From Balneolaceae bacterium (GTDB taxonomy: Bacteria > Bacteroidota > Rhodothermia > Balneolales > Cyclonatronaceae), in the NCBI GenBank assembly GCA_007694035.1, contig RECM01000133.1, positions 1 to 35,460 on the forward strand: 35,460 nucleotides of DNA. Direction: 5' to 3'. Each line of letters begins with the position of its first letter. Within the stretch, counting starts at the first letter, position 1. Under the pieces are notes generated by a model that saw only the letters and a program-made list of their open reading frames with translations, ran no database searches and had not been told where the DNA came from. Positions 15,801 to 35,460 of this stretch are shown here, in pieces. The translations under genes and the position numbers were made by a program.

Positions 15801-18800
15801 TTGAAAAGTAGTACGGTTTATAGCCTGATAATGGCAATACTGACTGCAGCGCTGTCATTTATTGCAACAGTGCCAAGCCGGGCCCAGGTTGTGGTTGTTG
15901 ATGAGTCGTTTTCTGACGGAATAGCCCCCTCCTGGGGTGGGATAACGTCTCATTTCACTACAATTGACAACGGTGATGGCCCGCTTCTGCAACTTGACGG
16001 GGATTCAGATAACGGCGGTGTGTCGTGGCTTTCCATTCCGGTATTTGCCGCATACGGGAGCTGGGAATTTCATGTGATGCTCGACTTCGCCACATCCAAC
16101 AACAACCGGAGCTATGTTCATCTGATCAGCGATGATGAAAATCCGGATGAGGGTAACGGGTATGCCATCCGTATCGGGGAGAGCGGGTCGGCCAAACACT
16201 TCCGGCTTGTGCGTATCGATAATGGCCGGGAGGCAGGTGTAATAACCCATGGAGACCGGTTGATTGAGGCAGGCAAAGGTTATAACCTGAAAATCAGTCG
16301 CGGCAATAACGGAATATGGCAGATTTTCTCATCCGAAGGGCGGGGTACGCCCCCGCAGCCCGACGGTATGCCCGGTTTCGACCAGACCCATCAGGCTACC
16401 GGGTGGTTCATATTCAAAGCCATCTATACGGCTACACGGGCAAACCGGTTTTACTGGGGCGATCTGCGCATCTCGAAAAATCCGGCCTTTGTGATTCAGA
16501 CTGAACGGGCTGGTCCCGACCGGTTGAGGATTCACTACTCCGAGTCGGACCTTTCAGGCTCCGATGATCCGGCATCATACCGGATTCTCGCCGGGAGGGA
16601 TAACAACGGGACAGTTAACAATGGATCTGCCGCCGGAACAAGTCCCGGTCCAATGCCCATTACTGAATCTGCTGAACCCGGACAAATCCGGCCTGATTCC
16701 CCGTATAACAAACCAAAAGCGGATCATGCCGGCAATGTATTCACGCCAGTGGGTGTGCAAAAAATCACACCGTCGGTGGTGGAACTGGTTTTCCCGGAAA
16801 CCCTGCCGGGCGGCCCGGCAGACCTTGAACTTAGCGGCATCAGCGATTATTACGGGCAGGAACTGGCACATACCACCATCCGGATATTGCTGCACGACGC
16901 TCCCGGCAGTGGCAGCGTGGTGATCAACGAATATCTGTACGACGACAGCGGTGGCTTGCCCCAGTATGTGGAACTGTACAACCCCGGTCCCGGATGGTAC
17001 AATCTGAAGGGCTGGGAGCTACGCGACCGGGGGACGGCAACCAGAATAATCACGGAGAACGACCGAACGCTTGAACCCGGCGGGTATCTGGTTGTAACCA
17101 CCAATGCACAGGCGCTTCAGAACCGGTTCGGACCGGGGCCCTGGCTCCGGATGGATCGTTTCCCCTCACTGAACCGGGCAAGCAGTGATCAGGTGCGCCT
17201 GTTCGGCCCCGGCGGGGTTTTGATCGATTCACTTGAATATCAGCCAGGCCTGTTCAATGCCGGCGGCCGGTCGGTCGAGCGGCGGTCACCGCTGGTCAGT
17301 TCCGTCTACCCCGAAAACTGGGCCGTATCGGAAAATGTTAATGGCGGCACCCCGGGGCTGCCCAATACGGCCAGGCCGCCGGAATCACCGCCCGCGTTGC
17401 TGGAACTCCGGACACCCGATTCCGGAACAATTGTTCTGCATTTCAGCCGTCCGATGGACGGGCAGAGCATCCGTCCGGGCCAGGTTACCCTTTCGCCCGG
17501 CATACCTGTCGATTCGGTGCAGATGATATCGGCTGTGGAATTCCATATTCATCTTGGCGGTGCCATGGTCAATGCTGCAGAATACCGGTTCGACATGCAC
17601 TACGTAACCGACGTATTCGGTATTCCCGTGAATCCATACACCCACTCGTTCTTCTATTACCATATTGAGGAGGCCGTCTACCGGGATGTGATCGTAAATG
17701 AGATACTGTACAGGCCTGTTGACGGCGTGGTGCCAAGGTTTATCGAGCTGGTGAACCGCTCAGCAAAAAATATCGATCTTTCGGGCTGGACAATCGGGCG
17801 GAGTTCGGCCACAATCCGTATTCCCGACTCACCCGATCTGATTGTACGTCCGGGAGAAACCGCCGTCTTTTCAGCCGGGCCCGGGCTTGTTGAAATCCCA
17901 CCATCAGTGATACACATAACCCTCAATCTGCCCGGATTCAGCCGCTTTGGGGATGCCATTTTCCTGAAAAACAGGAATGAGGCCCTAATCGATACCCTCC
18001 GCTATCAGCCCTCATGGGGCGGTGACGCTGACGGACGGTCGCTTGAGCGGATCGACCCCGACGCTGCATCCAACGATCCGGCAAACTGGGTGTCTCACCC
18101 AACAGGCCACAGTGCAGGTTCAATTAACAGGAATTATAAACCCGATCTGATTCCGCCTGAAGTGGTGAAAGCTGTTGTCAGGGGTCCTGAAACAGCTGAA
18201 ATTCTGTTCTCTGAATTTCTGGACACATCCTTCCCACCCGTAATCAGGGCCGGCAGCGGAACAGTACAGATTCAGGATTTCAATCCCTTTCAATCGAACA
18301 GGATTACCATTTCGCTGCCACCCGGCATAACAGATCAGGAGATTATGATCGGGATACACCAGGCGGTTGATGTTGCCGGGAACAGCGCCGACGTGCTTGA
18401 ACTGCCACTCGCACGAAAACCCGCGCCGGGCGACCTTGTGATCAATGAAATCATGTACCAGCCCATACAGAACCGCTACGGCTCCTTTCCCGACCAGTCC
18501 CAATATGTGGAGTTTTTCAACCGGTCGGAAAGAACGGTCTCACTCGCGGGCATCCATCTTCACGATGAACCCGACAAAGACGGCCAGGTCCGTACCGTGG
18601 AGCCTGCTGGCCATGAAACCGCATGGCTCCCGCCCGGAGGTTACGGGTTGATCTATGCCGACACGGCCAAAGGTTTCGCGGAAACCTCACTATCGCGCTT
18701 TTTCGGGCTGGCCCGTCTACCCGTATGGCTGCAGGCCAGAAGGTCAACCCTGAACCTGACATCTGCCGGCAAAACGGTCTACCTGGCGGTGCAGAATGGC

Positions 18801-19319
18801 CTGGTACTCGATTCGGTTGCCTATTCTCCCGGCTGGCACAATGCCAATTTACACGATACAAGAGGTATCAGCCTGGAGCGCATACATCCGGGCGGGCCAT
18901 CTGATGACGCCCGCAACTGGAGCTCGAACGTGATGCCGGCAGGTGGCACACCGGGGGCACCTAACTCCATTCTTCAGCTCCCCGGCACCGATGAAACCAA
19001 CCGAGGGTTATCGGTTTCGCCGAATCCCTTCTCGCCCGACGGCGACGGGCACGACGATAATCTGTTTATCTCCTATAACCTCGATGGTCCGGACTATCTT
19101 GTCACCATTCTGGTCTATGACCGGTACGGGCGGCTGGTACGCCGGCTTGCCGACCGGGAAAGGGCGGGCTTTGAAGGCAGTTTCATCTGGGACGGCCTGA
19201 CCGACAACGGCATTTCCGGTCGAATCGGGATCTATGTCATCCTTTTCAACGCTCACGATCCGGTTAACGGGAAAAGCATTCAGATGAAACAGACAGCGGT
19301 TCTGGCGAGGCAACTGTAA
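15801..19319 (+). CDS. Large secreted protein with three lamin-tail domains and a CHU_C/FlgD-like C-terminus
   Basis: This exported protein of 1172 residues begins with a signal peptide (about 1-28, ending SRAQ). Residues 30-225 look like a concanavalin-type jelly-roll (DESFSDG, and a WYW-like FYWGDLRISKNP end). Three lamin-tail domains follow at about 371-490 (SVVINEYLYDD), 628-740 (VIVNEILYRP) and 877-1055 (LVINEIMYQP), separated by Ig-like modules starting PPALLELRTP and PPEVVKAVVRG. The end (1070-1172) is VSPNPFSPDGDGHDD, then VYDRYGRLVRR and FIWDGLTDNG. This is a FlgD-Ig/CHU_C module resembling type-B C-terminal signals of type IX secretion. A TTG at 15801 preceded by AGGAG (15792-15796) is the likely start, since the next Met (12) lies within the signal peptide. 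It is likely a surface or matrix protein. Confidence 0.85.
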   Translation: MKSSTVYSLIMAILTAALSFIATVPSRAQVVVVDESFSDGIAPSWGGITSHFTTIDNGDGPLLQLDGDSDNGGVSWLSIPVFAAYGSWEFHVMLDFATSNNNRSYVHLISDDENPDEGNGYAIRIGESGSAKHFRLVRIDNGREAGVITHGDRLIEAGKGYNLKISRGNNGIWQIFSSEGRGTPPQPDGMPGFDQTHQATGWFIFKAIYTATRANRFYWGDLRISKNPAFVIQTERAGPDRLRIHYSESDLSGSDDPASYRILAGRDNNGTVNNGSAAGTSPGPMPITESAEPGQIRPDSPYNKPKADHAGNVFTPVGVQKITPSVVELVFPETLPGGPADLELSGISDYYGQELAHTTIRILLHDAPGSGSVVINEYLYDDSGGLPQYVELYNPGPGWYNLKGWELRDRGTATRIITENDRTLEPGGYLVVTTNAQALQNRFGPGPWLRMDRFPSLNRASSDQVRLFGPGGVLIDSLEYQPGLFNAGGRSVERRSPLVSSVYPENWAVSENVNGGTPGLPNTARPPESPPALLELRTPDSGTIVLHFSRPMDGQSIRPGQVTLSPGIPVDSVQMISAVEFHIHLGGAMVNAAEYRFDMHYVTDVFGIPVNPYTHSFFYYHIEEAVYRDVIVNEILYRPVDGVVPRFIELVNRSAKNIDLSGWTIGRSSATIRIPDSPDLIVRPGETAVFSAGPGLVEIPPSVIHITLNLPGFSRFGDAIFLKNRNEALIDTLRYQPSWGGDADGRSLERIDPDAASNDPANWVSHPTGHSAGSINRNYKPDLIPPEVVKAVVRGPETAEILFSEFLDTSFPPVIRAGSGTVQIQDFNPFQSNRITISLPPGITDQEIMIGIHQAVDVAGNSADVLELPLARKPAPGDLVINEIMYQPIQNRYGSFPDQSQYVEFFNRSERTVSLAGIHLHDEPDKDGQVRTVEPAGHETAWLPPGGYGLIYADTAKGFAETSLSRFFGLARLPVWLQARRSTLNLTSAGKTVYLAVQNGLVLDSVAYSPGWHNANLHDTRGISLERIHPGGPSDDARNWSSNVMPAGGTPGAPNSILQLPGTDETNRGLSVSPNPFSPDGDGHDDNLFISYNLDGPDYLVTILVYDRYGRLVRRLADRERAGFEGSFIWDGLTDNGISGRIGIYVILFNAHDPVNGKSIQMKQTAVLARQL

Positions 19320-20617: not shown

Positions 20618-22405
20618 ATGGGTAAGGAAACTTGGGGCAATAATCCGGTTTCAGCAGTTGTGAGAGTTGCAATACCGGTTCTTGCAGGTACAATCTCACT
20701 TTTTCTTATTGCTGTTCTGCCAGGAGCGGGTGTTGCTCAGGGTACCTTCGGCGATACAAACGTCAGGCTCTACACCCTCAGCGGCAATGTGAGCCTTCAA
20801 GGGCACGGGTACACCACCAATCGTTCTGTAAACCGGCGGGAACCACTCGGAGCACTCACAACAGCCAATCTGTCGTATTCGGTACTGGGATTCCGCTCGG
20901 GCCTGAGTTTTCGGTACAGTACCGACGACTCCCGGCTGCGACAGTCGATGAATGAGATTGGTTTTAGTGGTTCGTGGCGATGGATCAGCGTTGCGGCGGG
21001 CGACGTTTCGCCCAACCACTCCCGATTCGGCATGAGTGGTACCCGCATCCGGGGAGGTGAAATCCGACTCTCCCCCGGTCTGTTACGTTTCGAGGCCGGT
21101 GTGGGGCAGGCAAACCGGGCCGTCGACTTTGAAACCGGTACCGGACTTCGTCAGCCTTCATTCGAACGCTGGATTTATGCCACAAAAATTGGTTATGGCA
21201 GCACCTCCGGATCCTATTTCAACCTGTCAGGTCTGTACGGGCGGGATATAGCAGGTTCGATTCGTTTTCCCGACGATCCGGACCTGATGCCTCCGGGCAT
21301 ACCGGTACCGTCGCCTGCCGAGAATCTTTCCCTTACCCCCGACTTTCAGGTCAGCCTGTTCAACCGGGCATTCCGGCTGGGTGCTGAGACCACCTTCTCG
21401 GCTTTCAGCCGCGACACCCGCAGCCCTGCCCTCGACGCTTCCGACTCAGGTGCTCCGGGCTGGATCATCGATCTGTTCCGGCCCCGCGTCAGTACACGGG
21501 TCAGCTTCGCCGGCCAGGCCCATACCGAACTCAATATCGATCCGTTTCAGCTGCGGGTCGGTTATGAACGCATACAACCCGGCTTTGAAAGCATCGGCCA
21601 GCGGCAGATGCGCGACGATCAGCAATTGTGGACCTTCCAGCCACGTCTTTACCTGTTCGGCAACCGCTTCAGTATCGACTCTTCCGTGCGCATCGGGCGC
21701 GATAACCTGCTCGGGAACCGTCTTTTTACCCAGAAGCGGCAGGATATCTCACTGAACACCCGCACCCAGATCACCGGGTCGTTCTCGCTGGGTGCCGGCT
21801 TTTCACTTTTCGACAACCGCACCGAGGCCACCTCCGACAGCCCGGATGTTCCCGAGCTTTCACAGCGCCAGCTCTCCAGGATGTTCCAGCTTCAGCCTGT
21901 GCTGATGCTGTTTTCGGGCAATATATCGCACAGCATCGCAATGGCGGGTGTTTATCAGCAGCTGGATGCCCGGCTGCCTTCCAACTACCAGGAGCGCAAT
22001 TCGGGCAGCAGCACTATCACTTCCATGCTGACTTACACACTTGGGCTGCCTTCGGGACTATCGCTGAACTCGTCGCTGAACGGCCTCTGGGGCGAAGCGG
22101 CCGGCAGCGATTTTACAGCGTATGGCATCACCCTGGGTTCGGGGTTTTCATTTTTTGACCGTTCGTTAACGCTGAATTTATCGGGGGGCTACTCCCAGAA
22201 TTCATTCACCAGGCCCACCATGGAGGGCCCGGGTATTACCACGACCAGCAGACAGGTAAACGGCAATATAATGGCCAGCTACCGGATCACTACCACAAAT
22301 TCTCTTCGCCTCAACCTCCGCTCAATGAGCAATTTCGCCGATACAGGAGGTCCCCCGGCTTTTTCAGAATTCGATGTCCGGCTACAGTACCAGCACAACT
22401 TCTGA
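20618..22405 (+). CDS. Probable outer-membrane beta-barrel protein
   Basis: This 595-residue exported protein carries a long N-terminal signal sequence (about 1-41; hydrophobic core IPVLAGTISLFLIAVLPGAG, ending VAQG). The remainder is a series of amphipathic, alternating beta-strand segments with Gly, Ser, Arg and aromatic residues, few helices and no cysteine-rich domain. The last strand is VRLQYQHNF, ending in a C-terminal Phe, as in outer-membrane barrels recognised by BamA. The ATG is preceded by GGAG (20609-20612) with good spacing. It lies 35 bp before the giant gene, so the two are probably co-transcribed. By analogy with barrel-and-adhesin pairs (such as SprF with SprB) it may export or anchor the giant, which is inference. 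No named family was recognised. Confidence 0.7.
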   Translation: MGKETWGNNPVSAVVRVAIPVLAGTISLFLIAVLPGAGVAQGTFGDTNVRLYTLSGNVSLQGHGYTTNRSVNRREPLGALTTANLSYSVLGFRSGLSFRYSTDDSRLRQSMNEIGFSGSWRWISVAAGDVSPNHSRFGMSGTRIRGGEIRLSPGLLRFEAGVGQANRAVDFETGTGLRQPSFERWIYATKIGYGSTSGSYFNLSGLYGRDIAGSIRFPDDPDLMPPGIPVPSPAENLSLTPDFQVSLFNRAFRLGAETTFSAFSRDTRSPALDASDSGAPGWIIDLFRPRVSTRVSFAGQAHTELNIDPFQLRVGYERIQPGFESIGQRQMRDDQQLWTFQPRLYLFGNRFSIDSSVRIGRDNLLGNRLFTQKRQDISLNTRTQITGSFSLGAGFSLFDNRTEATSDSPDVPELSQRQLSRMFQLQPVLMLFSGNISHSIAMAGVYQQLDARLPSNYQERNSGSSTITSMLTYTLGLPSGLSLNSSLNGLWGEAAGSDFTAYGITLGSGFSFFDRSLTLNLSGGYSQNSFTRPTMEGPGITTTSRQVNGNIMASYRITTTNSLRLNLRSMSNFADTGGPPAFSEFDVRLQYQHNF

Positions 22406-22440
22406 GGAGACTACCAATTATTCACCGATCAGGAACAGAC

Positions 22441-25400
22441 ATGGGAAATTTTACCGCTAAAATCTGCAACAGGCATGAGTCAGCTCCCCAATCCCGCAAC
22501 TACCGGTTTGGGCGTTCAACCCGTCAGGTCATACGCTGCCTCACTGCCATCTTCCTGATATTTGTTTCGGGTCTATCCGGTGTCCGTGCGCAGACCACGG
22601 TTCAGGTAAACGTACTTGGTGTGCCTCCCGTGCTCACATCCCCCTTTGTTACCGAACTGGAGAGCAATTTCCGGACCGGTTTGTACCGGGTGCAGCTCAA
22701 TGTGATCAATGTGCAGGGTCAGCCGGTCGACATGGTTTTTCGAATCCAGGTCGTGAAAGACGGCCGGGTACTTGTCGAAGAAACATCCCGACCGGTGACT
22801 TATGAACCGGGAATCCACCTGCTCTCCCCCTTCTTTGAGCAGGTGCGATTCGAGCGAAGAGAACAGGATATCTTTGCCGACCTCGACCGGCAGGTCCGCA
22901 ATCAGGTGCTGCAATCCGGCGCCCTACCCGAGGGAAATTACATGCTGAACATCGAAGCTCAGCCCACCGTGACCGGACAGACATTTTCCGGTATCCCCGG
23001 TGTTTCCAATTTTCTGGTCCGTTACCCGCAGCCACCTCAGTTGCTTACCCCTCCCGACCGAAGTACGGTTGCCGTAGGTGTACCCATGTTTACATGGACA
23101 CCGGTGCTCGCTCCCGCCGGATCGCTCATGGAGTATGAGATTTTACTGGTACAGATGTTCGATGGTCAGAATCCCGGCGATGCCATTCTCAGCAACCGGG
23201 AACACGCCCGCGAAACCATCAGCAATATGACCATTCTGCCCTATACCGGCGAATTTCTTCCCCTCGAAAAAGGGAATACGTACGCATGGCAGGTCACGGC
23301 AACCGGATCGGTTCCAACCGATTTGGGCGATGCCGAACTTCCCGTGAAAAATGAGGGCCGCAGCGAAATCTATACGTTCACGTACAGCGACGACCTGTTT
23401 GGATCCGGCGATCTGGATCAGCTGTTGTCGATCAATCTGATTCCCGGGCTTGCCGTAATGACCGATCTTGAGCAGCTCGATATCACCGATTCGGGCACAT
23501 ATTACACGCTCAACGGCCCGGCAACGGTGCGTTTCAACTTCACGGAACTTGACGAGTCCATTACGGTGCGGTCTGCAGCCCAAAACCTGACCATTCTGAA
23601 GAGCGATCTGAACAATCCGGTGATTACCGGTGGTCGGGTCGACATCAGCATCGACCGGCTGAACCGACTTCTGCTGGGTGAGTCGACCATGCTGTCACTT
23701 TCGGGCATGCGTTACGAATTCGGGCTCGGCATCACGACCTCCGCCTCGATTGAGACACAGGCTTTTGGCCTGCTTGATGCGGCCGGTCAGCTCGACCTCA
23801 CTCCCGGCGGGTTACGCGGCACGCTTACGGCAACCGGGCAGGACCTGTTCCGGTTTGAGGGCGATCATCTGAGCCTCTCGGTAGATCAGGTGAGTGTAAC
23901 CCTGCCCGAGCAGCATTTCTCGGCCAGTGCGGGCATCAGCGTGCTGGGCATGCCGAGCCCCTGCCGGGCCTGGGGACTGGATCTTGACGATACCGTGATC
24001 AGCAGCAATTTCCAGTGCTTCCAGCCTTTCGGAGAGTCTCTCGGCGGAGATCCGGCCCGCGTCGACCTTCAATTTACGCAGATGAGCGGCTCCTTTATGG
24101 CCGATACAGACGACGGATCCCTGGAATATGAGATTGAAATGTCAGGGGCTGTCCGGCTGGATTATGCCAATACCGAACCCTGTGGAATGCGGCTCGCGGG
24201 TTCGATGGGCCACGACACTGCTCCCGAGTTCGACCTGTTCGGATCGACTTGCCGCATCCCCTCGCCCGAGCTGGATCTTGGCTTCGCCCGCATTGGTGTG
24301 CGCTCCATGGATGTGGACAGGTTTGCATACGACCCTGCAAGCGGCGGGTGGGATTTTGGATTCAGCATTGATCCCTACATAAAAATCCCGGTATTCGACA
24401 ACTGGACCCATGAGCCGGGGGAATCGGTGACCATAGACCGGCAGGGCGTGCATCTGCCAGCCATGAGTGTACCCGCAACCATGCTGCCCGAGTACCGCCA
24501 TTCGGGATTGAGGGTTAAGGTTACCAGCCTGTCATCCCAGGCATTCACCTTTCCCTGGTATGGATGGGACGGTTTGGGGGCCGGCCCCTGGCCGGTATCA
24601 TTCGGCGCGAACGCCTGGTTTGTCTCCGCCACCGAAATGCCGGCATGCCTGCGCACAATGAATTTTGAGATCACCGACGGCCGCATTCAGAACGACCGGC
24701 TCAGGGCATCGGCTGTGGTCAGCAGTCCGGATCCTGACGGGATAGCCTGCCCTATCGGCCCCGGCGGACAACACACACTGAAAATCGGTGGCATTCAGGC
24801 CGATCTGATGGCTGAATTCCAGCCCGAGGGGCCCGAACTGAGCGCCACGCTCGCCATGCAGAGCCTCATAGAATCGGGATATCCGGTTTCCTGCGCCGAA
24901 CAATCCGGTCCTGGCCAGCAGGCACGGGCACAGTTCCAGGATCAGACGATGGAACTGACCGGGAGGGGTTTCTCTGCCACCTTCAGCAATATCCATACCG
25001 GCTGCGACATGCGTATCGGGCCATTTTCGGCGAGTATCGGCAGTTCAACACTTCACATCGGATCCGACCGCGGCGTCTTTTCTGCCAGCCTGAGCGCTGA
25101 TGCCTCGCTGAAACTCAGCGAAACCGAATCTGTGAGTGGATCCTTCAGCTACGACCTGGTAAGCGGTGAATTTACCGGACTCGACTTCCGGCTCGATCAG
25201 CCTTTTATCTGGGCAGTGCCGCCCGACGATCCGGTACTCAGCTTCCGAATCAATGAGGCCGTGCTGAACCTCGACGGTTTTTCGGTCGACGGCCGGCAGC
25301 GGCTGTTGCTTGGTACCGACGAGATGGGCGTGACCTTCGATGAACTGGTGATCGACCTGAATACCAGCCGAATCACGTCGGGACGCATCCTGTTCGATCA

Positions 25401-28400
25401 GAGCTTCGGACTGATGGCCGGTTTCGAAGACGGGCTGGACTCACCCCGGTTCCGGGCTGTTCCGGAGGGATTCGATCCGGGGCAGGAACAGGGGCTGCAT
25501 TTCGAGCTCGGGGGACGCATTACCGCCGACACCGACGGCCTGAGGGCCGAGGGCACCGCATCCGCTTCACTCAGCGTTCAGGAGCTTACCTACAGCAACG
25601 CCGAGGTGCAATTTTCTGACAATTTCTCCATGAGCCTCATCCCCTTTGCCGTTAATTCCGGCTATGCCACCCTGCTGTGGGATGAGGTTGCAGTAGCTTT
25701 TCTGGATGCCTCCGGACTGAACCCCGTCATTTCGGGCCTGGCCGAAAACTTCCTGCCCGACCGCCTGCCCCTCCCATCACTTGATGCTGCCTGGCTGCAG
25801 CTGCGCGACAGTGAGGGAACCCTGCTGGTCGATATCCAGCAATTGCCTGAAAACCGGCTGCGATTGCTCACCCGGCCGGGCCAGCCGCTCGATCTCTACC
25901 TGCCCTTTCTGAATGCCGCCAATCCGCCGGTTGCCGCAGGTGTTAATCTGGAGGATGTAATTGTATCGACCAATCCGGGCCATTTCAGAGTGCTTTCCGG
26001 AATGGTATCGGTGGATGTGCCCCTGAACAACCCGGCTTTCGACCTGGAACAGTACGGGCTGCCCTTCATCCCCCGCAGCATCAACTACGGTTTTGTTGAG
26101 GCCGTGCAAGACCACGCCCTGCAGATTTACGGGGATGTGAAGTTGTTCGGAAGGCAGCTTACGGAACAGGGCGAAGCAGTGCTCAGGGTATTGACCGACG
26201 CAGGCATCATCGGTGAGTTCGATTTCGACAATCTTGATGTGTCCGTACCGTTTGTCGAACAACTCGATAAAATACTGCTCGAGATCGACCGGTTCAGCGG
26301 TGCGATCCAGCTGCCCAACGTGACGCAGACGCCGTCTTATCAGTTCAATATCGGGGGGCATTTCCGGATCAACGCGGCAAGCCCTGCAGCGGCCCTGGCC
26401 GAGATCGGCCTGAGCATGACTCCGGGCGGCATTTCCCTCGAATCGTTCCATCCTGTTGAACTGGGCGAACCGTTTCCGATCGTACTCGGTGGCTTCGACC
26501 TGAAAATCGATGCCATCACCTCCATCCCCGTGCTTCACTATGCCCCTGAGAGTGGCTGGGACTTTGCCGTCGACCTCGATGCCCATGCCGGGTTTGAGCT
26601 GCGCTCCGGCGACCGGTTCGAGCTTCCGTTGCAGGGCCTGATGCTCTCGAAAGATGCATTCTCGATACCCGCCCAGAATTTCAATACCGCATCGACGGGG
26701 CTGAGGCTTCCGGAGATCGATCTCGACGGCGTACTCATCCGGCCCCTTGCCATACGTTCAACCGCCGACATCAGCTTCAACTGGGTGGCGGGCGAGGTGC
26801 CCACGTTCAGTCCGGTGTTCGATTTCGAGCTGCAGCTGCCGGCCCTCGATGCCAGCGGCATCATCCCGCCCGAGGGTCTGTCGCTGGTGGATGTGACCTT
26901 TGCCGACGGTTACCTGAGCGGCGAGCTGCTCCCCTTCTCGCCACTTGGCGGAGCGCCCCTGAGCCTGGGCACCGAATCGTTAACGGCCGTCATACTCAGG
27001 GTCGAAGATATCTCCGGTATCCTCACCCCTCCCACCATCCCCGGCGATCCACAGATGATAGATATAATGATGTCGGGCACCATCGACGATTTTCCGATTT
27101 TCACCGGGGGCGATGCAGCCTGCCAGGTTCAGGGCAGCTGGAATTTCCGGATCGCTCAGGGTCACGGATTCGAGGGCCTTGTCGAAGATCTGTCGCCCTG
27201 TGGCAGCATCAGCCTGGGCCCGCTCGATCTGGGTTACCCGACCGCGTCGCTGGAATTGCAGTACACCGATGATGTGCAGAAAGCGCTGCTGAGCGGCGTG
27301 GCGCAGGTAAGCCTCGAGCACCCGAACCCGGGCAACCCGCCGGTACAGGCATCAGGTTCACTTACGGTCGACCTGATGACCGGCCGTGTGGATGATGGTG
27401 AAATTGCCATCAACCAGCCGTTCCGGCTCGAACTGCCCGCAACCGGCGGCAACCCGCTGCTGCCGTTTACAGTGAACAGCGCAATTCTGAACCGCGACGG
27501 GCTGCGGATGAATGCCGACGGGGAGCTGAGGGCCGGTGGCTCAACGCACACCGTCGCATTTAATAATTTGCTGCTGAGCCTGCCCGACTTTTCGATTGCG
27601 GGCGGCAGTGCCGTAGTACAGGGCGGCTTCGGCCTCGAGCTGGGGCTGAGTCCCCTCGACCTTGCCCTGATCGATTACAATGCCCCATTGCCCGACCGGA
27701 GTGCCCTGCGGTTTACCACTTCGGCAAGTGTGGTTCTGGATGCCAGCGGCCTGAACTATTCCGGTACAGGCAACGCACAGCTCGTGTTCAACGACGAAAC
27801 CTTCGGCGTGCTGAGGGTGGAGTTTCATGACGATTTCGCCATGAGCATTTATCAGCCGCGGGTGAGCCGTGGCCGGGCCGAATTTTACCTCGACCTCGAC
27901 GGGCCCGCAGCCGAGCCCATAGCCATACTCGATGTGACCGGCCTGAGCGTGGGTGGCGGCCTGATTGCCATGCTTCCCGACCGGATCGGTCTGCCCTCCG
28001 AAGATATCGCCTATGTGCAGATCAAGGACGCGGCCGGGGAGCCGCTGGTCAGTTTTACCGATAACGGCAGTGGCGGCTACACGGTTACATCCGGCGACCA
28101 GTTTTTACCGGTGGTTTTCCCGGCACTGCAATACAATGCCGCCCAGGCCCCTGAGGCCGGCATCCGTTTTACCCTGAACACCGACGGCACATTCAACCCC
28201 AACGGCGGCACGATCGAGATTTCGGGCAGTATGGACCTACAGCCGGTGCTGGGCATCCCCCTGTCGGTCGACAGTCTGGGGCTTGATTCGCAGAACGGGC
28301 TCACGGTGCGCCTGGCGGCCGACCTTCCGCCTGCCTTTGGCAATCAGCCGGTGAGGGCGCAGGCTACGGTAAACAGCAGCGGGTTTGTACAGGCTGTAGT

Positions 28401-31400
28401 TGAGGCCGGCACCTATGTGGACCAGTACAGCCCGGGCACAAACCTGATGTTCGAAAGCACTGTCGATGGATCACTGGGTGCATCCACCGAGGCCGTTCAT
28501 GTGGGGATTTACGGTGCCCGCATCATGATTGGGGCTGTTAACGAGATGATGGTCTCCGGCACCTTCAAAACCAGTTTTTTCGAGCATGAGAACCAGCTAC
28601 TTCCCCTCTTCTTCAAGGCCGGATACTCGGGTGGCCAGTGGCAGGCCGAGGCCGGGAACCCGCTGAACGCCGCCATACAAGTGGGTTTCGCCTCCATCTT
28701 GCTCGACGAGGAGGCACCGGTCGGGGTCAGCATCGCTTCCGACCGGCTCATCCTCTCCCTGAATGGCCGCGTCAATTTCAGCGAGGCGTTGGGTGAGGAC
28801 CTCGAATTCAGTTTTGAAAACCTTGAGGTGGGTGTCGAGAACCTGCAATCCGATCCCCGGCCCGTATTCCGCCTGGGTCAGGCCACCGCCCACCTTGGCA
28901 GTCAGACCTTCGATTTCTTCAACGGCACCCTCACCGGGACCATGAACGAGCCGTCGATTACCATATCCGGGCGCAGTATTTCTGCCGCCTCGTCGTCGGG
29001 GCAGCTAACCTTCATGGACCGAACGTTCGGGTATCAAAATATCGATGTTAGCAGCACCGGGAATTTCACCATCGGGTCGATCAGCAGCGGCAATGTGCAG
29101 ATCATCGGTGAGTACCTGGTACTTCAAAGCCTGGGCATGAGCGTCGAATCGGGCAGCGGGCTCGAACTGGATGCGACCTTCGGCTTTTTCGTGCCCGATC
29201 CGGTCGACCAGGAGGGGCAGGTCATCGTAAAGGTATCGCGCGAGGCCAATAACAGCATCAAGGTGGAAAGCGGATCGCCAAATATTGAACTGAATCAGAA
29301 GATAGCCATGGGCAGTCTTTTTGAATTCAAGCTAACCGGGTTCGATCTGGATCTGAATGTGCAGGATCTGAATCAGACTGCCCTGTATGCCAGCGGAGTG
29401 GTGTTGTATAACAACCAGGAACGCATATGGTTCGGTGAAGCCGGGAATCTTCGGGATAAACCTGGTATCGGCATCAAGCTCGATAATCCGAACCTTGTTT
29501 CGTACAATGCCACTGGCAAAGGGGAATTCAAAGTAGAAACGGGCCTTTTGAACGTTTATGTGAATGGCAATGCAGTTGCATCCGACAGTGAACAGTTCAG
29601 ACTGGTTCTTGGAGGTTCTGCTGAGCTGGACCTTCCCGGCGTGAGTGGCGATGTCGGGTATGAAGGCATGGTGGTGACCCGTGAAGGGATTGTCGAAAAA
29701 GGAAATTTCACCGGAGCAGCTGAATTTACGTTCATCGGTATCATGAAGCTGACAGTAGGAACTTTCCTGCACCGGGTAGAGGAGCAGCCTTTTACAATAC
29801 AGGTGGCCCCATTCATTGAAAAACCGACAGTCGATCAACCCGGTACCGTTGATCTTGATGTGGTTGAACTGCTCTGTTTTGGACCTTGCCCCGCTGTTCC
29901 TGGTACCGTATCGGATGTGGCACTGCGTATCTCCTTTGACGGTTCAGGCGAGGGCGATAACGGCAGTTTCTCAGCATTTGTAGATCGGATCATGTACTAT
30001 CGCACAGCCAACAACGACATCTCCCTATACATCGACAATGCCGGAATTTCTCTCAGCAGCATCGCCAGGATCAATGCTTCATTACACTACGAACAGAGCG
30101 GAGGCGACTTCCTGTTCCGGGCAGCCGGCTCGGCTCGGATTGCCGGAATAACTGCCATGATGGCGGGAAAATTCGCCAACGTTGGAGATGAGCTCAGTTT
30201 CGGGATTTTTGTTGCTGTAGGTGGAAGTACCGGAATACCCATTGCACCCGGTATTAACTTGACAGCGGTTGGCGGCGGTTTTTTCTACCGGCCTGTCAGT
30301 GAAGACATTGCATTCGTACAGGGTGCACTTAGTGACTTCGGTTACAAAAGGGTGAAAAAAGATCCTATCGAACTCGGTAATAATGTTAAGTTTGCGGCAA
30401 TGCTCTATGCAGAAGTTGGTATTGGTGCAGGTACCAAACACATACTATCGGGAAAGACGTTTATTATGGTAGCATCAGGGCTATTCTATATGGACGTTAG
30501 AGGTCATGTTTTGGGAATGGATGGAACCGGAACAATTGGTACAAAACTGGAGGGTTCCATGTTTGTGGAATTTAGAACAGATCCGTTTCTGCTAATCGCA
30601 GGTATTGGAATTGAAGTTAGAGTCAGAAGCGATGGCCGAATTGTTAAGGGAGATGCCGACATTACCTTTGCATTGGCCCGTGAGGGTGGAGAGCAAGGCT
30701 CAATGATATTTGCCTTGATGGGAAAGCTCGACATTAGCCTGGTATCATCTTTTAATGCTACTGCTGATATATTGGCCAGTAATGACGGATTTTACATCGA
30801 TGCTTCTTTGGGCCTGGACCTGCTGGACGGTATTCCTCTCGTCTCTGTGAGCGGTACCATTAAAGCTGCAGTCTGGTACATTCCCGGCCATGACAAAATG
30901 CCTTTCGGGGCCTACGGTACAGCTGAGATAAGTTTGACCCTGGTTATAACAGTTTCGGCCCAGGCTGCTGCTGCCTTCGTGAGGCGCGATACCGGTTTTG
31001 AGCTGTTTATTTCGGCAAAAGGCTGTATTGGAGCGTGGAAGTTTGAAAAATGTGCAGCCGCATGGTTCCTTATTTCACCCTCCGGTATTGATTGGGGCAG
31101 AGGTGCCGGCGCACATGGCGATATTTTGGCACAGGCAGAAGCGCTGAAAAATCAATTCCGGCAAAGCATAATGGATACTATAGCAGAGTTGAATAAGCTC
31201 AAGGAAGCCCTTGAGGCACTACCCCAACCTGAACTGACCTCGTTCTCGCCCGAAGAGCTGGCAAAAGCAGGAATATACCTGTACAGCCTCCCAACTGGTG
31301 CAAGATCGAATTGGGTACAAAAAATGCGCTCCAATGAATCCAATCTCACAGGTGTGGGATACTCTGAACTCGATAATCTGCTGGGCAGCGTGACGTCATC

Positions 31401-34400
31401 CAACCGCCCCGGTATCGTACTGGATATGTCGTATCTGACCGGAGCTGTTGATCCCTATCAGAATGCCATTGAGCACATTGACGAGGTTGTTGAAAGGTTG
31501 CAATCCAGCATCCTGCTGGCCATTGAATTTGACACAGAGGCGGAGGAATTGCTGGATGATGTCATAGCAAGTTTTGATCAAACGCCTGTTCAAAATTTCA
31601 CAAAAGGATCAATAAATGGTGGAACGATCAACCCCGGCAGCTTTACAGTGAATGATGACATAGCCTCGGAACAGGCTGAAAGTATGGAATCGTACAGAGC
31701 TGATATTCAAAGGCTTGAACAACAGTTTATAGAGGCCATTAGTACAGTTGAACAGAACGTTACAACCATGGCATCGCTACTGGGCCGGGATGATCCTCCG
31801 GGTGAGGTCATAAATATTGGAAACCTTCAAAATCAGATGATGGAATCGAACGTACTGGGTCTTGGTGGAACAACCAGTCAGCAACTGCCAAAATCTGTGA
31901 ATGCCATCAGCCAGATCTTTACCCATGCTCTGGAAACAACAGACAGGCGGTTTGCCATTGAAGCCAACTCTGTGTACCGGAAAGTAGTCTGGGCCATGCT
32001 GGGTGCAAATGCATTTTCATCCCGACAGCAAAGTCTGACTGCCGAGGCCGACAACGTTACCAATAGATTCCAAACGGCCTTCGACAGCAGAGCATCTGAT
32101 GCAACAAGCCATCTCAATACCTACTTCGAACGTCGCAATATCATGCACAGGTTGTTGGATGGACTACCATCAATCTACAATCAGAATTACAACTTCAGCA
32201 ATGCACATGAAACGGTCAGTTCTGAACACGATAGTTTGATGACCTATTTCAATAATCCGCTCAGTGGCAACCTTAATGCTGAAAACAGAAATAAAGTCCA
32301 GCAAAATAATCGTGACTTTTGGTTCAATATGCACAGAACCGGTTTGCAAGGTTACGCGAGTCGTGTTCTTATAACCGATGGTGAGAACACAAGCACATTC
32401 GATGATTTGGTAAAAAGACATCATAATCGCCGGAAAGCCCTGATTGACGCCCATATGAACACCACTGGACTCATCGACCAATACTATACCATCAAGTCAT
32501 CGGTTATGTCCAATTTGTACCATCTCATCGACACCTATTTGACCATGGGTGAATTCGGGGGGCTCGATAGTGAAACGTATGAACAATATGATCAACGACG
32601 TACTGAAATTGCCTCTTTAATGCAGCCTCCTGTAATTGGCAGCATGAGTATATCCGGGTCATTTACAGCCGGCAGCTATTTAAACACCGGAACTATCAGT
32701 TGGGATATTACCTATCCCGGCCGGGTATCCGAGACTGCAATCATGGTGCGGGAAACCAACTCACCGTCCCCCCTTTTCTCCGAAATGACCAGCTATTTCT
32801 CGGTAGGTACCCGAAGCTCTTTTGCCCACAGCACTTATAAAAATCGTTTTATGGATCCATTAATGACCAACAACCCGCTTGGCGTTTCTGCGCACAACAC
32901 CAACAATGTAACAGTTTCGCTTCGCGTGCGGGGAGAGTCGGGAGTCACCGGGTTCACCTCATCCACATTCAGTCTTCAGACAGGTGTGGGCGGAACGCAG
33001 ACGGCTACCACAACTGAGTTGGTATCGGTATCGGATACACCTCCCGGCAGACCAACAATTATTTTGTGGGATTATTACCGATTTGTTCAGACATCGGACC
33101 GCGGTTCTTTGTACTGGACTTCAGATGAAAACAGTATCCGCTTCAAAGTAAGAACAAATCAATCTACGAGTGATATTCAGCGGGTAGAATATGCTGTAGG
33201 TACTACGCAGGGTGGTACAGATGTTATAGACTGGTCCCCCTTTATAGCACCACGTACGCGGATATCGTCATCGTTTCCCAGGTACGATTATACCGGCAGA
33301 ACAGGATTTCTCCAGCTTCAAGAAGAAACGCCATATTACATCAGTGTGCGTGTCTATAGTAGCAATGATCTGGTAAGTCCGGTAGCAAACAGCTTACCGG
33401 TATATTTGGACACTATTGAGCCCACAAAACCCGGGAATCTGAGAATTGGCATTCAAATGCCGACGTACTGGTTTTTTGCTATGGGAGAAACTCCGTTGTT
33501 GCACCCATTGATCAACGAAATTCCATTGAATCCGATAGATCCGGAGACGACCGACAGACAGACACCAAATCATACTCTGTCATGGAACGCTGCCACTGAT
33601 AACGTTTCTGGAATCTGGAAATACGAGTACGCAATTACACAATCGGCTGAGCCAAATGATCATGATTTCAAAGAAGATCAGTTTACATCCAGTCTGTTGA
33701 AAAGCTTTTCTGGTTCATCGGAGAAATATGCCCACATAGTGGACTATATCACACCGGTTTATCTGCATGTACGATCTGTAAACAATGCTGGTCTCAGGAG
33801 CGACATTTCCAGTATCGGTCCGTATAAGCCAGCTGATATGACCCGGCCCACTGTCCCGGAATTTCGAACTTATGTGAGCTCCGGTACGGGGTTTTTACTG
33901 CCCAACGATATCGTTTGTGGCTTCATCACAAGAGAAGCTACAGATCCCGAGACAGGAATAACAGGATATCAATTTTCTATTGGCACATCACCCGGCGCTG
34001 ATGACGTTCGTCCATGGCCCGGTGCCGGTGACATTGATGCCTTCAGCAATGAATTCAAAATGAATACCAATAACGTGCCCAATCACTTGTGCATAAATAA
34101 AAGTGAATTCCCCGAGGGTCAGAACCTGTATTTGAACACCCGTGCATTGAACGGCCAGAATATGGCCTCCCGGGTTGTTAGCAGCGGACCGTTCCTGCTT
34201 GATTCAACCCCTCCGGTTATCGGCAGTGTGAATTTTGGGGAAACCACCATCCTCGAAAGCGATGGTCGAATTACTATAAACAACACACAGGACCCGGAGT
34301 CCGGAATCGTCAAAATTGAGTACAGAATCATCAACAATTCGACCAATCAGGTGGTCATCCCCTGGACTACAAACTACAATGCCGGGCCAAACAAATATAC

Positions 34401-34548
34401 CTTTAACAGGAATATTTATGTAAATAACCCTGGAACTGGAGGATTTTCGCCGTCTATTCATCGTGCCGAGGTAAGGGTGACCAACGCAATGGGACTACAG
34501 AGTATCTCTGGTGCAAATTTCTTCCGACCGATATCAATTGGTTGGTAA
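22441..34548 (+). CDS. Giant secreted modular protein with TANFOR-like N-terminus and C-terminal Ig/Fn3 repeats
   Basis: The product has 4035 residues and I cannot assign a function. After a signal peptide (hydrophobic core about 33-48, cut near VRAQ), residues 52-196 resemble the TANFOR domain of large Bacteroidota surface proteins (VQVNVLGVPPVLTS, and LPEGNYMLNIEA before PPQLLTPP). An Ig/Fn3-like module spans about 197-315. Residues 315-2480 are beta-rich with two long homologous units of about 735 residues. A Gly-rich module follows (about 2476-2890). About 2890-3390 is predicted helical, partly coiled-coil. From 3395 to the end come Ig/Fn3-like modules beginning near 3395, 3533, 3660, 3801 and 3923. 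Paired cysteines suggest disulfides, consistent with an extracytoplasmic location. It has no CHU_C or typical type IX C-terminal signal. AGGA (22431-22434) precedes the ATG. Similar overall to surface adhesins. Confidence 0.8.
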   Translation: MGNFTAKICNRHESAPQSRNYRFGRSTRQVIRCLTAIFLIFVSGLSGVRAQTTVQVNVLGVPPVLTSPFVTELESNFRTGLYRVQLNVINVQGQPVDMVFRIQVVKDGRVLVEETSRPVTYEPGIHLLSPFFEQVRFERREQDIFADLDRQVRNQVLQSGALPEGNYMLNIEAQPTVTGQTFSGIPGVSNFLVRYPQPPQLLTPPDRSTVAVGVPMFTWTPVLAPAGSLMEYEILLVQMFDGQNPGDAILSNREHARETISNMTILPYTGEFLPLEKGNTYAWQVTATGSVPTDLGDAELPVKNEGRSEIYTFTYSDDLFGSGDLDQLLSINLIPGLAVMTDLEQLDITDSGTYYTLNGPATVRFNFTELDESITVRSAAQNLTILKSDLNNPVITGGRVDISIDRLNRLLLGESTMLSLSGMRYEFGLGITTSASIETQAFGLLDAAGQLDLTPGGLRGTLTATGQDLFRFEGDHLSLSVDQVSVTLPEQHFSASAGISVLGMPSPCRAWGLDLDDTVISSNFQCFQPFGESLGGDPARVDLQFTQMSGSFMADTDDGSLEYEIEMSGAVRLDYANTEPCGMRLAGSMGHDTAPEFDLFGSTCRIPSPELDLGFARIGVRSMDVDRFAYDPASGGWDFGFSIDPYIKIPVFDNWTHEPGESVTIDRQGVHLPAMSVPATMLPEYRHSGLRVKVTSLSSQAFTFPWYGWDGLGAGPWPVSFGANAWFVSATEMPACLRTMNFEITDGRIQNDRLRASAVVSSPDPDGIACPIGPGGQHTLKIGGIQADLMAEFQPEGPELSATLAMQSLIESGYPVSCAEQSGPGQQARAQFQDQTMELTGRGFSATFSNIHTGCDMRIGPFSASIGSSTLHIGSDRGVFSASLSADASLKLSETESVSGSFSYDLVSGEFTGLDFRLDQPFIWAVPPDDPVLSFRINEAVLNLDGFSVDGRQRLLLGTDEMGVTFDELVIDLNTSRITSGRILFDQSFGLMAGFEDGLDSPRFRAVPEGFDPGQEQGLHFELGGRITADTDGLRAEGTASASLSVQELTYSNAEVQFSDNFSMSLIPFAVNSGYATLLWDEVAVAFLDASGLNPVISGLAENFLPDRLPLPSLDAAWLQLRDSEGTLLVDIQQLPENRLRLLTRPGQPLDLYLPFLNAANPPVAAGVNLEDVIVSTNPGHFRVLSGMVSVDVPLNNPAFDLEQYGLPFIPRSINYGFVEAVQDHALQIYGDVKLFGRQLTEQGEAVLRVLTDAGIIGEFDFDNLDVSVPFVEQLDKILLEIDRFSGAIQLPNVTQTPSYQFNIGGHFRINAASPAAALAEIGLSMTPGGISLESFHPVELGEPFPIVLGGFDLKIDAITSIPVLHYAPESGWDFAVDLDAHAGFELRSGDRFELPLQGLMLSKDAFSIPAQNFNTASTGLRLPEIDLDGVLIRPLAIRSTADISFNWVAGEVPTFSPVFDFELQLPALDASGIIPPEGLSLVDVTFADGYLSGELLPFSPLGGAPLSLGTESLTAVILRVEDISGILTPPTIPGDPQMIDIMMSGTIDDFPIFTGGDAACQVQGSWNFRIAQGHGFEGLVEDLSPCGSISLGPLDLGYPTASLELQYTDDVQKALLSGVAQVSLEHPNPGNPPVQASGSLTVDLMTGRVDDGEIAINQPFRLELPATGGNPLLPFTVNSAILNRDGLRMNADGELRAGGSTHTVAFNNLLLSLPDFSIAGGSAVVQGGFGLELGLSPLDLALIDYNAPLPDRSALRFTTSASVVLDASGLNYSGTGNAQLVFNDETFGVLRVEFHDDFAMSIYQPRVSRGRAEFYLDLDGPAAEPIAILDVTGLSVGGGLIAMLPDRIGLPSEDIAYVQIKDAAGEPLVSFTDNGSGGYTVTSGDQFLPVVFPALQYNAAQAPEAGIRFTLNTDGTFNPNGGTIEISGSMDLQPVLGIPLSVDSLGLDSQNGLTVRLAADLPPAFGNQPVRAQATVNSSGFVQAVVEAGTYVDQYSPGTNLMFESTVDGSLGASTEAVHVGIYGARIMIGAVNEMMVSGTFKTSFFEHENQLLPLFFKAGYSGGQWQAEAGNPLNAAIQVGFASILLDEEAPVGVSIASDRLILSLNGRVNFSEALGEDLEFSFENLEVGVENLQSDPRPVFRLGQATAHLGSQTFDFFNGTLTGTMNEPSITISGRSISAASSSGQLTFMDRTFGYQNIDVSSTGNFTIGSISSGNVQIIGEYLVLQSLGMSVESGSGLELDATFGFFVPDPVDQEGQVIVKVSREANNSIKVESGSPNIELNQKIAMGSLFEFKLTGFDLDLNVQDLNQTALYASGVVLYNNQERIWFGEAGNLRDKPGIGIKLDNPNLVSYNATGKGEFKVETGLLNVYVNGNAVASDSEQFRLVLGGSAELDLPGVSGDVGYEGMVVTREGIVEKGNFTGAAEFTFIGIMKLTVGTFLHRVEEQPFTIQVAPFIEKPTVDQPGTVDLDVVELLCFGPCPAVPGTVSDVALRISFDGSGEGDNGSFSAFVDRIMYYRTANNDISLYIDNAGISLSSIARINASLHYEQSGGDFLFRAAGSARIAGITAMMAGKFANVGDELSFGIFVAVGGSTGIPIAPGINLTAVGGGFFYRPVSEDIAFVQGALSDFGYKRVKKDPIELGNNVKFAAMLYAEVGIGAGTKHILSGKTFIMVASGLFYMDVRGHVLGMDGTGTIGTKLEGSMFVEFRTDPFLLIAGIGIEVRVRSDGRIVKGDADITFALAREGGEQGSMIFALMGKLDISLVSSFNATADILASNDGFYIDASLGLDLLDGIPLVSVSGTIKAAVWYIPGHDKMPFGAYGTAEISLTLVITVSAQAAAAFVRRDTGFELFISAKGCIGAWKFEKCAAAWFLISPSGIDWGRGAGAHGDILAQAEALKNQFRQSIMDTIAELNKLKEALEALPQPELTSFSPEELAKAGIYLYSLPTGARSNWVQKMRSNESNLTGVGYSELDNLLGSVTSSNRPGIVLDMSYLTGAVDPYQNAIEHIDEVVERLQSSILLAIEFDTEAEELLDDVIASFDQTPVQNFTKGSINGGTINPGSFTVNDDIASEQAESMESYRADIQRLEQQFIEAISTVEQNVTTMASLLGRDDPPGEVINIGNLQNQMMESNVLGLGGTTSQQLPKSVNAISQIFTHALETTDRRFAIEANSVYRKVVWAMLGANAFSSRQQSLTAEADNVTNRFQTAFDSRASDATSHLNTYFERRNIMHRLLDGLPSIYNQNYNFSNAHETVSSEHDSLMTYFNNPLSGNLNAENRNKVQQNNRDFWFNMHRTGLQGYASRVLITDGENTSTFDDLVKRHHNRRKALIDAHMNTTGLIDQYYTIKSSVMSNLYHLIDTYLTMGEFGGLDSETYEQYDQRRTEIASLMQPPVIGSMSISGSFTAGSYLNTGTISWDITYPGRVSETAIMVRETNSPSPLFSEMTSYFSVGTRSSFAHSTYKNRFMDPLMTNNPLGVSAHNTNNVTVSLRVRGESGVTGFTSSTFSLQTGVGGTQTATTTELVSVSDTPPGRPTIILWDYYRFVQTSDRGSLYWTSDENSIRFKVRTNQSTSDIQRVEYAVGTTQGGTDVIDWSPFIAPRTRISSSFPRYDYTGRTGFLQLQEETPYYISVRVYSSNDLVSPVANSLPVYLDTIEPTKPGNLRIGIQMPTYWFFAMGETPLLHPLINEIPLNPIDPETTDRQTPNHTLSWNAATDNVSGIWKYEYAITQSAEPNDHDFKEDQFTSSLLKSFSGSSEKYAHIVDYITPVYLHVRSVNNAGLRSDISSIGPYKPADMTRPTVPEFRTYVSSGTGFLLPNDIVCGFITREATDPETGITGYQFSIGTSPGADDVRPWPGAGDIDAFSNEFKMNTNNVPNHLCINKSEFPEGQNLYLNTRALNGQNMASRVVSSGPFLLDSTPPVIGSVNFGETTILESDGRITINNTQDPESGIVKIEYRIINNSTNQVVIPWTTNYNAGPNKYTFNRNIYVNNPGTGGFSPSIHRAEVRVTNAMGLQSISGANFFRPISIGW
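24331..26080 (+). repeat. Internal protein repeat unit 1 of the giant protein
   Basis: Translated, this part (about residues 631-1213) aligns with residues 1367-1950. Anchors in order are SGGWDF (W637), GCDMRIG (C855), LPDR with P1106, and SG followed by MVSVDV (G1187). The unit probably continues to about residue 1366, but its last part is harder to align by eye. Confidence 0.7.
26539..28290 (+). repeat. Internal protein repeat unit 2 of the giant protein
   Basis: The corresponding anchors are ESGWDF (W1373), PCGSISLG (C1587), LPDR with P1846, and SG followed by SMDLQP (G1929). Offsets from unit 1 are 736, 732, 740 and 742 residues, so the register is kept over nearly 600 residues. The DNA has diverged, so the duplication is old. 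Confidence 0.7.
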
Positions 34549-34584
34549 TCCCATATTTATTCCAACTTTATTTACCGATGCGTC

Positions 34585-35460
34585 ATGAAAATTGAGAATC
34601 CATACACTACCGGAAATTTTAATCCTCTGTTTGCCTTATCACTTACAATCGGTCTGTTGATCCTGCAAGCCATCCCGGCATGGTCACAGCCAGCCCTTTT
34701 GGGTGCCCTGTCGGCCGATGGTGAAGCGTACATCTATCACGACCATCGTATACAGCCCGGTTTCGGCTATCTGCTCTCGAGAACGGTCGACGGGCAGACT
34801 GAGGATCTGGTTACCGAACCGGCCCGGGCCGTGACCAATGGCAATGATCTGGTCTCCATTCTTGGGCCGTTGAGTACCGATCTGATGCACTTGATGGAAG
34901 TCACCTCGCCCCAGATGCTCTATCTCAGACTGACCGCAGACCCCGACCTGCTGACCATTCTCTCGCTTACCTTTCCCGAGGTGGCCATCGCCTTTGCACA
35001 GGTATTCATTGACACTGACCCAGTACCCGGTCGTGCTGCCGTTTACCGGTTCACCATCGTGGATTCAAATGGGAACCCTACGGGTATTGCCATTGAGGAA
35101 CGTCTCACCATCCGGGATTTTACCCCTACCACACCCGCGAACTTGTCGGCAAGCCACGAACAAAATCAGATCGAGGTGTTATGGGACTACCCCCGCCTCG
35201 ATTTCAGTGGCGACGATCGCATGATCCGATTCCGCCTTCTGGCAAAAATGGAAGGTGACGGACGGTTTTCCGCCACAGGTCCCGGCCTGATCATGCGGCA
35301 GAACGAGGTAACACGATACCGCGCCCATCTCCCCTACGACCCCACCCGCGAACGATTCGAGGTGATGGTTCAGGCCATCGACGTGACCGGCACTTTCATC
35401 GCGTTGTCCGATCCCATTACCGTTGAGACCGGCAAACTGGTCGTTCCGGCTTCGGCACTC
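34585..35460 (+). CDS. Secreted fibronectin type III protein (partial, runs off the window)
   Basis: An ATG at 34585 opens a frame of 292 codons that is still open at the last base. The upstream ATG at 34578 is out of frame and stops after five codons, so 34585 is the start. It begins MKIENPYTTG, then a hydrophobic core and IPAWSQ, a signal peptide cut near residue 34. Residues 36-178 form a mixed domain with no clear motif. A fibronectin type III module follows at about 180-285 (TPANLSASHEQNQIEVLWDY at its start, YRAHL and VMVQAID in the later strands). It is 36 bp from the giant gene and on the same strand, so it is likely part of the same operon. GC content is higher than in the 3' end of the giant. 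Confidence 0.75.
   Translation, partial: MKIENPYTTGNFNPLFALSLTIGLLILQAIPAWSQPALLGALSADGEAYIYHDHRIQPGFGYLLSRTVDGQTEDLVTEPARAVTNGNDLVSILGPLSTDLMHLMEVTSPQMLYLRLTADPDLLTILSLTFPEVAIAFAQVFIDTDPVPGRAAVYRFTIVDSNGNPTGIAIEERLTIRDFTPTTPANLSASHEQNQIEVLWDYPRLDFSGDDRMIRFRLLAKMEGDGRFSATGPGLIMRQNEVTRYRAHLPYDPTRERFEVMVQAIDVTGTFIALSDPITVETGKLVVPASAL

Follow-up and report, generated by a model that had tools for sequence, protein, structure and literature searches.

TANFOR-domain proteins (TIGR02542) were described by Jana, Salomon and Bosis (2020) as polymorphic toxins with Fn3-type neighbours (PMC7073777), and the known TANFOR proteins of other Bacteroidota carry toxin domains (PMC7073777). The class and its Fn3 neighbours are already known, but their first description did not settle how TANFOR toxins and giants cross the outer membrane. 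Type B substrates of the type IX secretion system (T9SS), on their side, have cognate barrel partners of the PorP/SprF family (PMC12618676). Here we analyze a window of 35,460 nucleotides, which is one complete contig (RECM01000133.1, referred to below as C12) of the 4.0 Mb, 279-contig genome of a Balneolaceae bacterium (GCA_007694035.1). Its last three genes encode a predicted outer-membrane β-barrel, a giant TANFOR-type protein and an Fn3 protein. With a probability of roughly 0.6, we read this trio as one copy of a conserved Bacteroidota module in which the barrel serves to export or anchor the TANFOR giant paired with it, helped by Fn3 and often by TPR proteins. The pairing of barrel and giant is well supported, and the trio is recurrent across Bacteroidota, not a local oddity.

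The giant had been called TANFOR-like in a first reading of the window (the original prediction), a claim that stands through the relatives of the protein and not through the curated model itself. TIGR02542 does not match the giant at E ≤ 1, and matches no other protein of its genome; among 396 Bacteroidota genomes no protein exceeds its cut-off of 67 bits, and 15 proteins in 12 genomes match below that threshold. A profile built solely from the N-termini of the giants of the Balneolaceae genome matches all 15 of these independently found TANFOR proteins (E 1e-52 to 1e-20) and nothing else at their loci. Because it recovers every one of them, the head of the giant is, on profile evidence, homologous to the TANFOR region and lies outside the reach of the TIGR02542 model. 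Furthermore, the genes found by TIGR02542 have barrel and Fn3-protein homologues in their neighbourhoods, neither of which was used as a search query. A sequence search of the trio against the PDB returned nothing useful; a weak HflC similarity at giant residues 104-152 (E 0.0017) was set aside as probably due to chance, and is not shared by the three other paralogous N-termini tested.

The barrel and head profiles were both run over these 396 genomes. The TANFOR head is found in 103 of them, and it is present in every one of the 84 genomes that the barrel profile matches strongly (84/84, naive P 7e-68). A TANFOR gene lies on the same strand within 20 kb for 98 of the 111 strong barrels, and directly downstream in 60. 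Where the available flanks are long, an Fn3-family gene follows within about 160 bp of 24 of the 38 TANFOR genes. Tight trios occur in many families, most commonly in the order barrel, giant, Fn3, and in some lineages as giant, Fn3, barrel; the GC-rich locus L098 was left out of this count. The single tight cluster seen in the original prediction is an arrangement that recurs in dozens of genomes, far above chance, and the trio is conserved in relatives. The original prediction would have been refuted by giant homologues that never stand beside a barrel, and this refutation fails. Closer to the window, a locus search with two close barrel sequences gave four loci in metagenome-assembled genomes (MAGs). 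Most giants fetched from the same family and order have 3940-4053 residues and align end to end, and a TPR gene continues four of the loci fetched from these taxa.

The two partners also diverge in parallel. Distance trees of barrels and heads agree over 41 pairs (Spearman 0.866, reached in 0 of 2000 permutations), and 29 of the 41 have the same nearest neighbour in both trees. In a close Rhodothermaceae MAG (L112, 8614-14198), the site after murI holds a barrel and a giant that match the pair on another contig of the Balneolaceae genome, C151 (88% and 85%), and not the pair on C12. Both genes match the C151 pair together, and so change as a unit: the pair was exchanged, or a tandem copy lost, as a whole at this site.

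The barrel itself was modelled with AlphaFold from 44 sequences as a 26-stranded fold (mean predicted local distance difference test, pLDDT, 89.7; predicted template-modelling score, pTM, 0.79). Its nearest folds by Foldseek are MtrB in first place, then the FimD usher, SlpA and LptD, with template-modelling (TM) scores of at most 0.54. MtrB, FimD and LptD are large outer-membrane barrels that sheath or pass other molecules, and are the best structural matches, but sequence homology to them was not detected. With 26 strands, a final Phe and MtrB as its nearest fold, the protein is a predicted outer-membrane β-barrel, in agreement with the original prediction. No informative Pfam or NCBIfam family was found for any of the trio, and a few barrel-family members touch generic Pfam families of outer-membrane barrels. 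Flavobacterial members (L051, 1247-3703; L071) reach about 818 aa, the barrel being followed by some 250 additional C-terminal residues.

The SprB/SprF comparison made in the original prediction does not hold as membership. A dedicated barrel gene adjoining a large surface-type protein, and cognate pairing, are indeed shared with the pairs of type B substrate and PorP/SprF barrel; on the other hand, the barrel is of another family and size, it usually lies upstream rather than downstream, and the giant has no type B signal. PF11751 (PorP_SprF) does not match the barrel family, so that a PorP/SprF identity was rejected; it finds nothing in the Balneolaceae genome or in six Rhodothermia carriers that were checked, and many proteins in flavobacterial and related genomes, which served as positive controls. 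As for the giant, neither the type A sorting domain (Por_Secre_tail, TIGR04183/PF18962) nor the type B one (TIGR04131, at E ≤ 1) was matched, which bears out the earlier remark that a type IX C-terminal signal is missing.

In the mechanism that we propose, Sec would export all proteins of the module, and the cognate barrel would recognize the TANFOR region with which the mature giant begins, carrying the giant to the cell surface or holding it there; the Fn3 and TPR proteins would help in assembly or tethering. Surface export or anchoring of the giant is likely, the step itself being inferred. The cargo in this clade would be a long repetitive β structure, probably adhesive or structural, and the same head can carry toxins in other Bacteroidota.

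Two forms of this module reading differ in the pore that would take the giant across the outer membrane. In one, the giant is a T9SS substrate with an unconventional signal: SprA moves it over the outer membrane, and the 26-stranded barrel then acts as shuttle or anchor, in the manner of PorP/SprF with a different fold. SprA is present in all 103 TANFOR genomes vs 305 of the 396 overall (naive P for enrichment 1.4e-14), and in the Balneolaceae genome it is matched with E=0; T9SS type A proteins lie within several clusters, T9SS export of TANFOR proteins has been proposed (Jana et al., PMC7073777), and dedicated barrel partners of type B substrates are established (PMC12618676). Nonetheless, no sorting domain of type A or B was found in the giant, the barrel is neither PorP/SprF nor small, and nearly all of the listed SprA-negative genomes belong to one family, so that the co-occurrence is confounded by phylogeny. 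We consider this form a serious candidate at somewhat below even odds. In the other form, which we hold more tentatively, TANFOR-headed giants and toxins pass through the barrel as their own translocon, addressed for export by the TANFOR region and with no need of T9SS, as in two-partner secretion (TPS; FhaC/FhaB, CdiB/CdiA). The layout is that of TPS, with the barrel directly upstream of a giant whose N-terminal head is conserved and whose cargo varies, some relatives carrying toxins (PMC7073777), and the barrel is large, with conduit-like folds as its neighbours. However, POTRA, Omp85 and TPS domains were not found by Pfam in the trio or the barrel family, the head is unrelated, the strands are 26 rather than 16, and SprA always co-occurs in the genomes sampled. 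If true, this form would be a previously unrecognized export or surface-display system of Bacteroidota, analogous but unrelated to TPS.

Several points weigh against the module reading as a whole. The barrel profile was seeded in part from TANFOR neighbours, and for some TANFOR genes no barrel is visible. The mirror-tree agreement includes shared ancestry, and the paralogues of the Balneolaceae genome alone give a weak test (rho 0.78, 9 of 120 permutations). The Foldseek matches of the barrel are architectural (TM 0.54, 10% identity), and both its closure and its recognition of the TANFOR region are putative. Finally, with SprA in 103 of 103 TANFOR genomes, the type IX translocon may export the giant and the barrel may only anchor it.

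The giant was compared to itself by profile, which gives repeat units of about 730 residues; direct BLAST finds no internal repeats. Residues 1780-2950 were modelled as all-β (pLDDT 78, pTM 0.43), and the modelled strands are two-faced, with one strongly hydrophobic face (2.62 vs 1.46 in shuffles). No solved structure like the whole segment was found by Foldseek against the PDB and viral models, the resemblance being to local β-sheets. Such hydrophobic faces, together with a weak local resemblance to LptD and ApoB, would fit a giant that stays periplasmic or lines the inward side of the outer membrane, where it would serve as a long β scaffold supplying the barrel with lipid or polysaccharide, as in Lpt or TamB-type systems. 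This is improbable: nearly all top Foldseek matches have TM below 0.2, TamB or chorein families are not matched, the giant has a cleavable signal peptide, and one relative has a nuclease toxin domain that needs export. The adhesin or matrix role given to the trio in the original prediction is a guess.

With the TANFOR polymorphic toxins the giant shares a homologous head after the signal peptide, Fn3-type neighbours, the Bacteroidota range and a genomic T9SS. It differs in having no toxin and no immunity gene, in having roughly two to four times the length of the toxin-type relatives found here, and in being unreached by TIGR02542. Its head would be that of a polymorphic toxin of this class, but Pfam and NCBIfam find no toxin domain in it, its C-terminus is collinear among relatives instead of swapped, and the following gene encodes an exported Fn3 protein, not an immunity protein. 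We rejected this identity on the missing toxin domain and the collinear C-terminus, and regard it as very improbable. Locus L056 (12970-18150) holds a shorter TANFOR protein (1726 aa) that ends in a colicin/pyocin-type DNase domain, with a barrel-family gene nearby, which suggests that the toxin branch of TANFOR proteins uses the same barrel family.

The partner barrel, the phylum-wide pairing and the toxin-free, 4000-residue Rhodothermia branch appear to be undescribed in the literature searched, which left out most subscription papers and preprints; no paired barrel is mentioned in the main text of PMC7073777. These results suggest that a known class of giants and toxins has its own outer-membrane partner. 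A co-evolving barrel in about a fifth of the sampled Bacteroidota genomes offers a specific gene and complex to study, and the barrel and the TANFOR-linked Fn3 protein each define a family that the Pfam and NCBIfam scans did not identify.

At the locus (Table 1), the open reading frames and hydrophobic N-termini are as originally claimed: three consecutive plus-strand genes, with gaps of 35 bp between barrel and giant and 36 bp between giant and third gene, each protein starting with a Sec-type hydrophobic stretch. No terminator-like sites were found in these two gaps, and regional consensus sites are no commoner than in shuffles. The Fn3 assignment of the third gene stands on its C151 homologue, which has a clear fn3 domain (E 3.6e-15); the visible 292 aa alone have no Pfam match. 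The final 388 bp of the window (35073-35460) overlap one end of contig C151 with 93.8% identity, probably a strain-variable join. The overlap suggests, short of proof, that the locus runs on into C151 with the Fn3 protein, a TPR protein, a second barrel and a second giant; if the contigs abut, the third gene would run on into C151 and encode about 700 aa in total.

Table 1. Features of the barrel–giant–Fn3 locus in the window.
Feature	Position	Strand	Description
Predicted partner outer-membrane β-barrel	20618..22405	+	595 aa; Sec signal peptide at about residues 1-40; final Phe; 26 strands predicted; five paralogues in the same genome
Giant TANFOR-type protein	22441..34548	+	4035 aa; collinear homologues of 3940-4150 aa in the same order and class
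Giant, putative signal peptide	22441..22590	+	About residues 1-50, long n-region; inferred from hydrophobicity only
Giant, TANFOR-type N-terminal region and following Fn3/Ig-like segment	22549..23391	+	About residues 37-317; from profile match coordinates, alignment and linkage to TIGR02542 proteins
Giant, β-rich repeat unit 1	23812..25992	+	About residues 458-1184; profile-profile self-comparison
Giant, β-rich repeat unit 2	25990..28170	+	About residues 1184-1910; profile-profile self-comparison; AlphaFold2 model covers 1780-2950
Giant, third repeat-like stretch, weaker	28168..29640	+	About residues 1910-2400; profile self-comparison with weaker probabilities
Giant, conserved core of about 20 long antiparallel strands	29968..31101	+	About residues 2510-2887; by eye, the point beyond which shorter TANFOR proteins seem not to extend
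Giant, C-terminal extension	31102..34545	+	Helical stretch, then putative Ig/Fn3-like segments (weak fn3 match in a paralogue)
Fn3 protein, first 292 residues	34585..35460	+	Signal peptide; open 3' end at contig edge

Elsewhere in the same genome, units of the trio type lie on C151, C72 (one whole, one cut) and C270, besides that on C12, and partial ones on C82 and C223. Six TANFOR starts were counted in this genome, each adjoining a barrel-family gene. A TPR protein of about 690 residues adjoins the unit on C151, C270 and C82, and on C72 and C270 the unit lies next to a T9SS type A protein that carries cadherin/Ig domains. On C223 (L032, 796-11966), a 710-aa barrel-family gene and a TANFOR-like start stand beside two proteins (1419 and 1587 aa) in which Pfam finds no domain.

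Two genes upstream of the barrel, the window encodes a 1172-aa protein (15801-19319, plus strand) that is likely a separate T9SS substrate: it has three lamin-tail domains, and its end resembles T9SS type B/CHU_C below the threshold. At loci L094, L095 and L101, apparent extracytoplasmic function (ECF)-sigma-type genes and large kinase/TPR-like genes were seen by eye near the barrel, and may represent a regulator.
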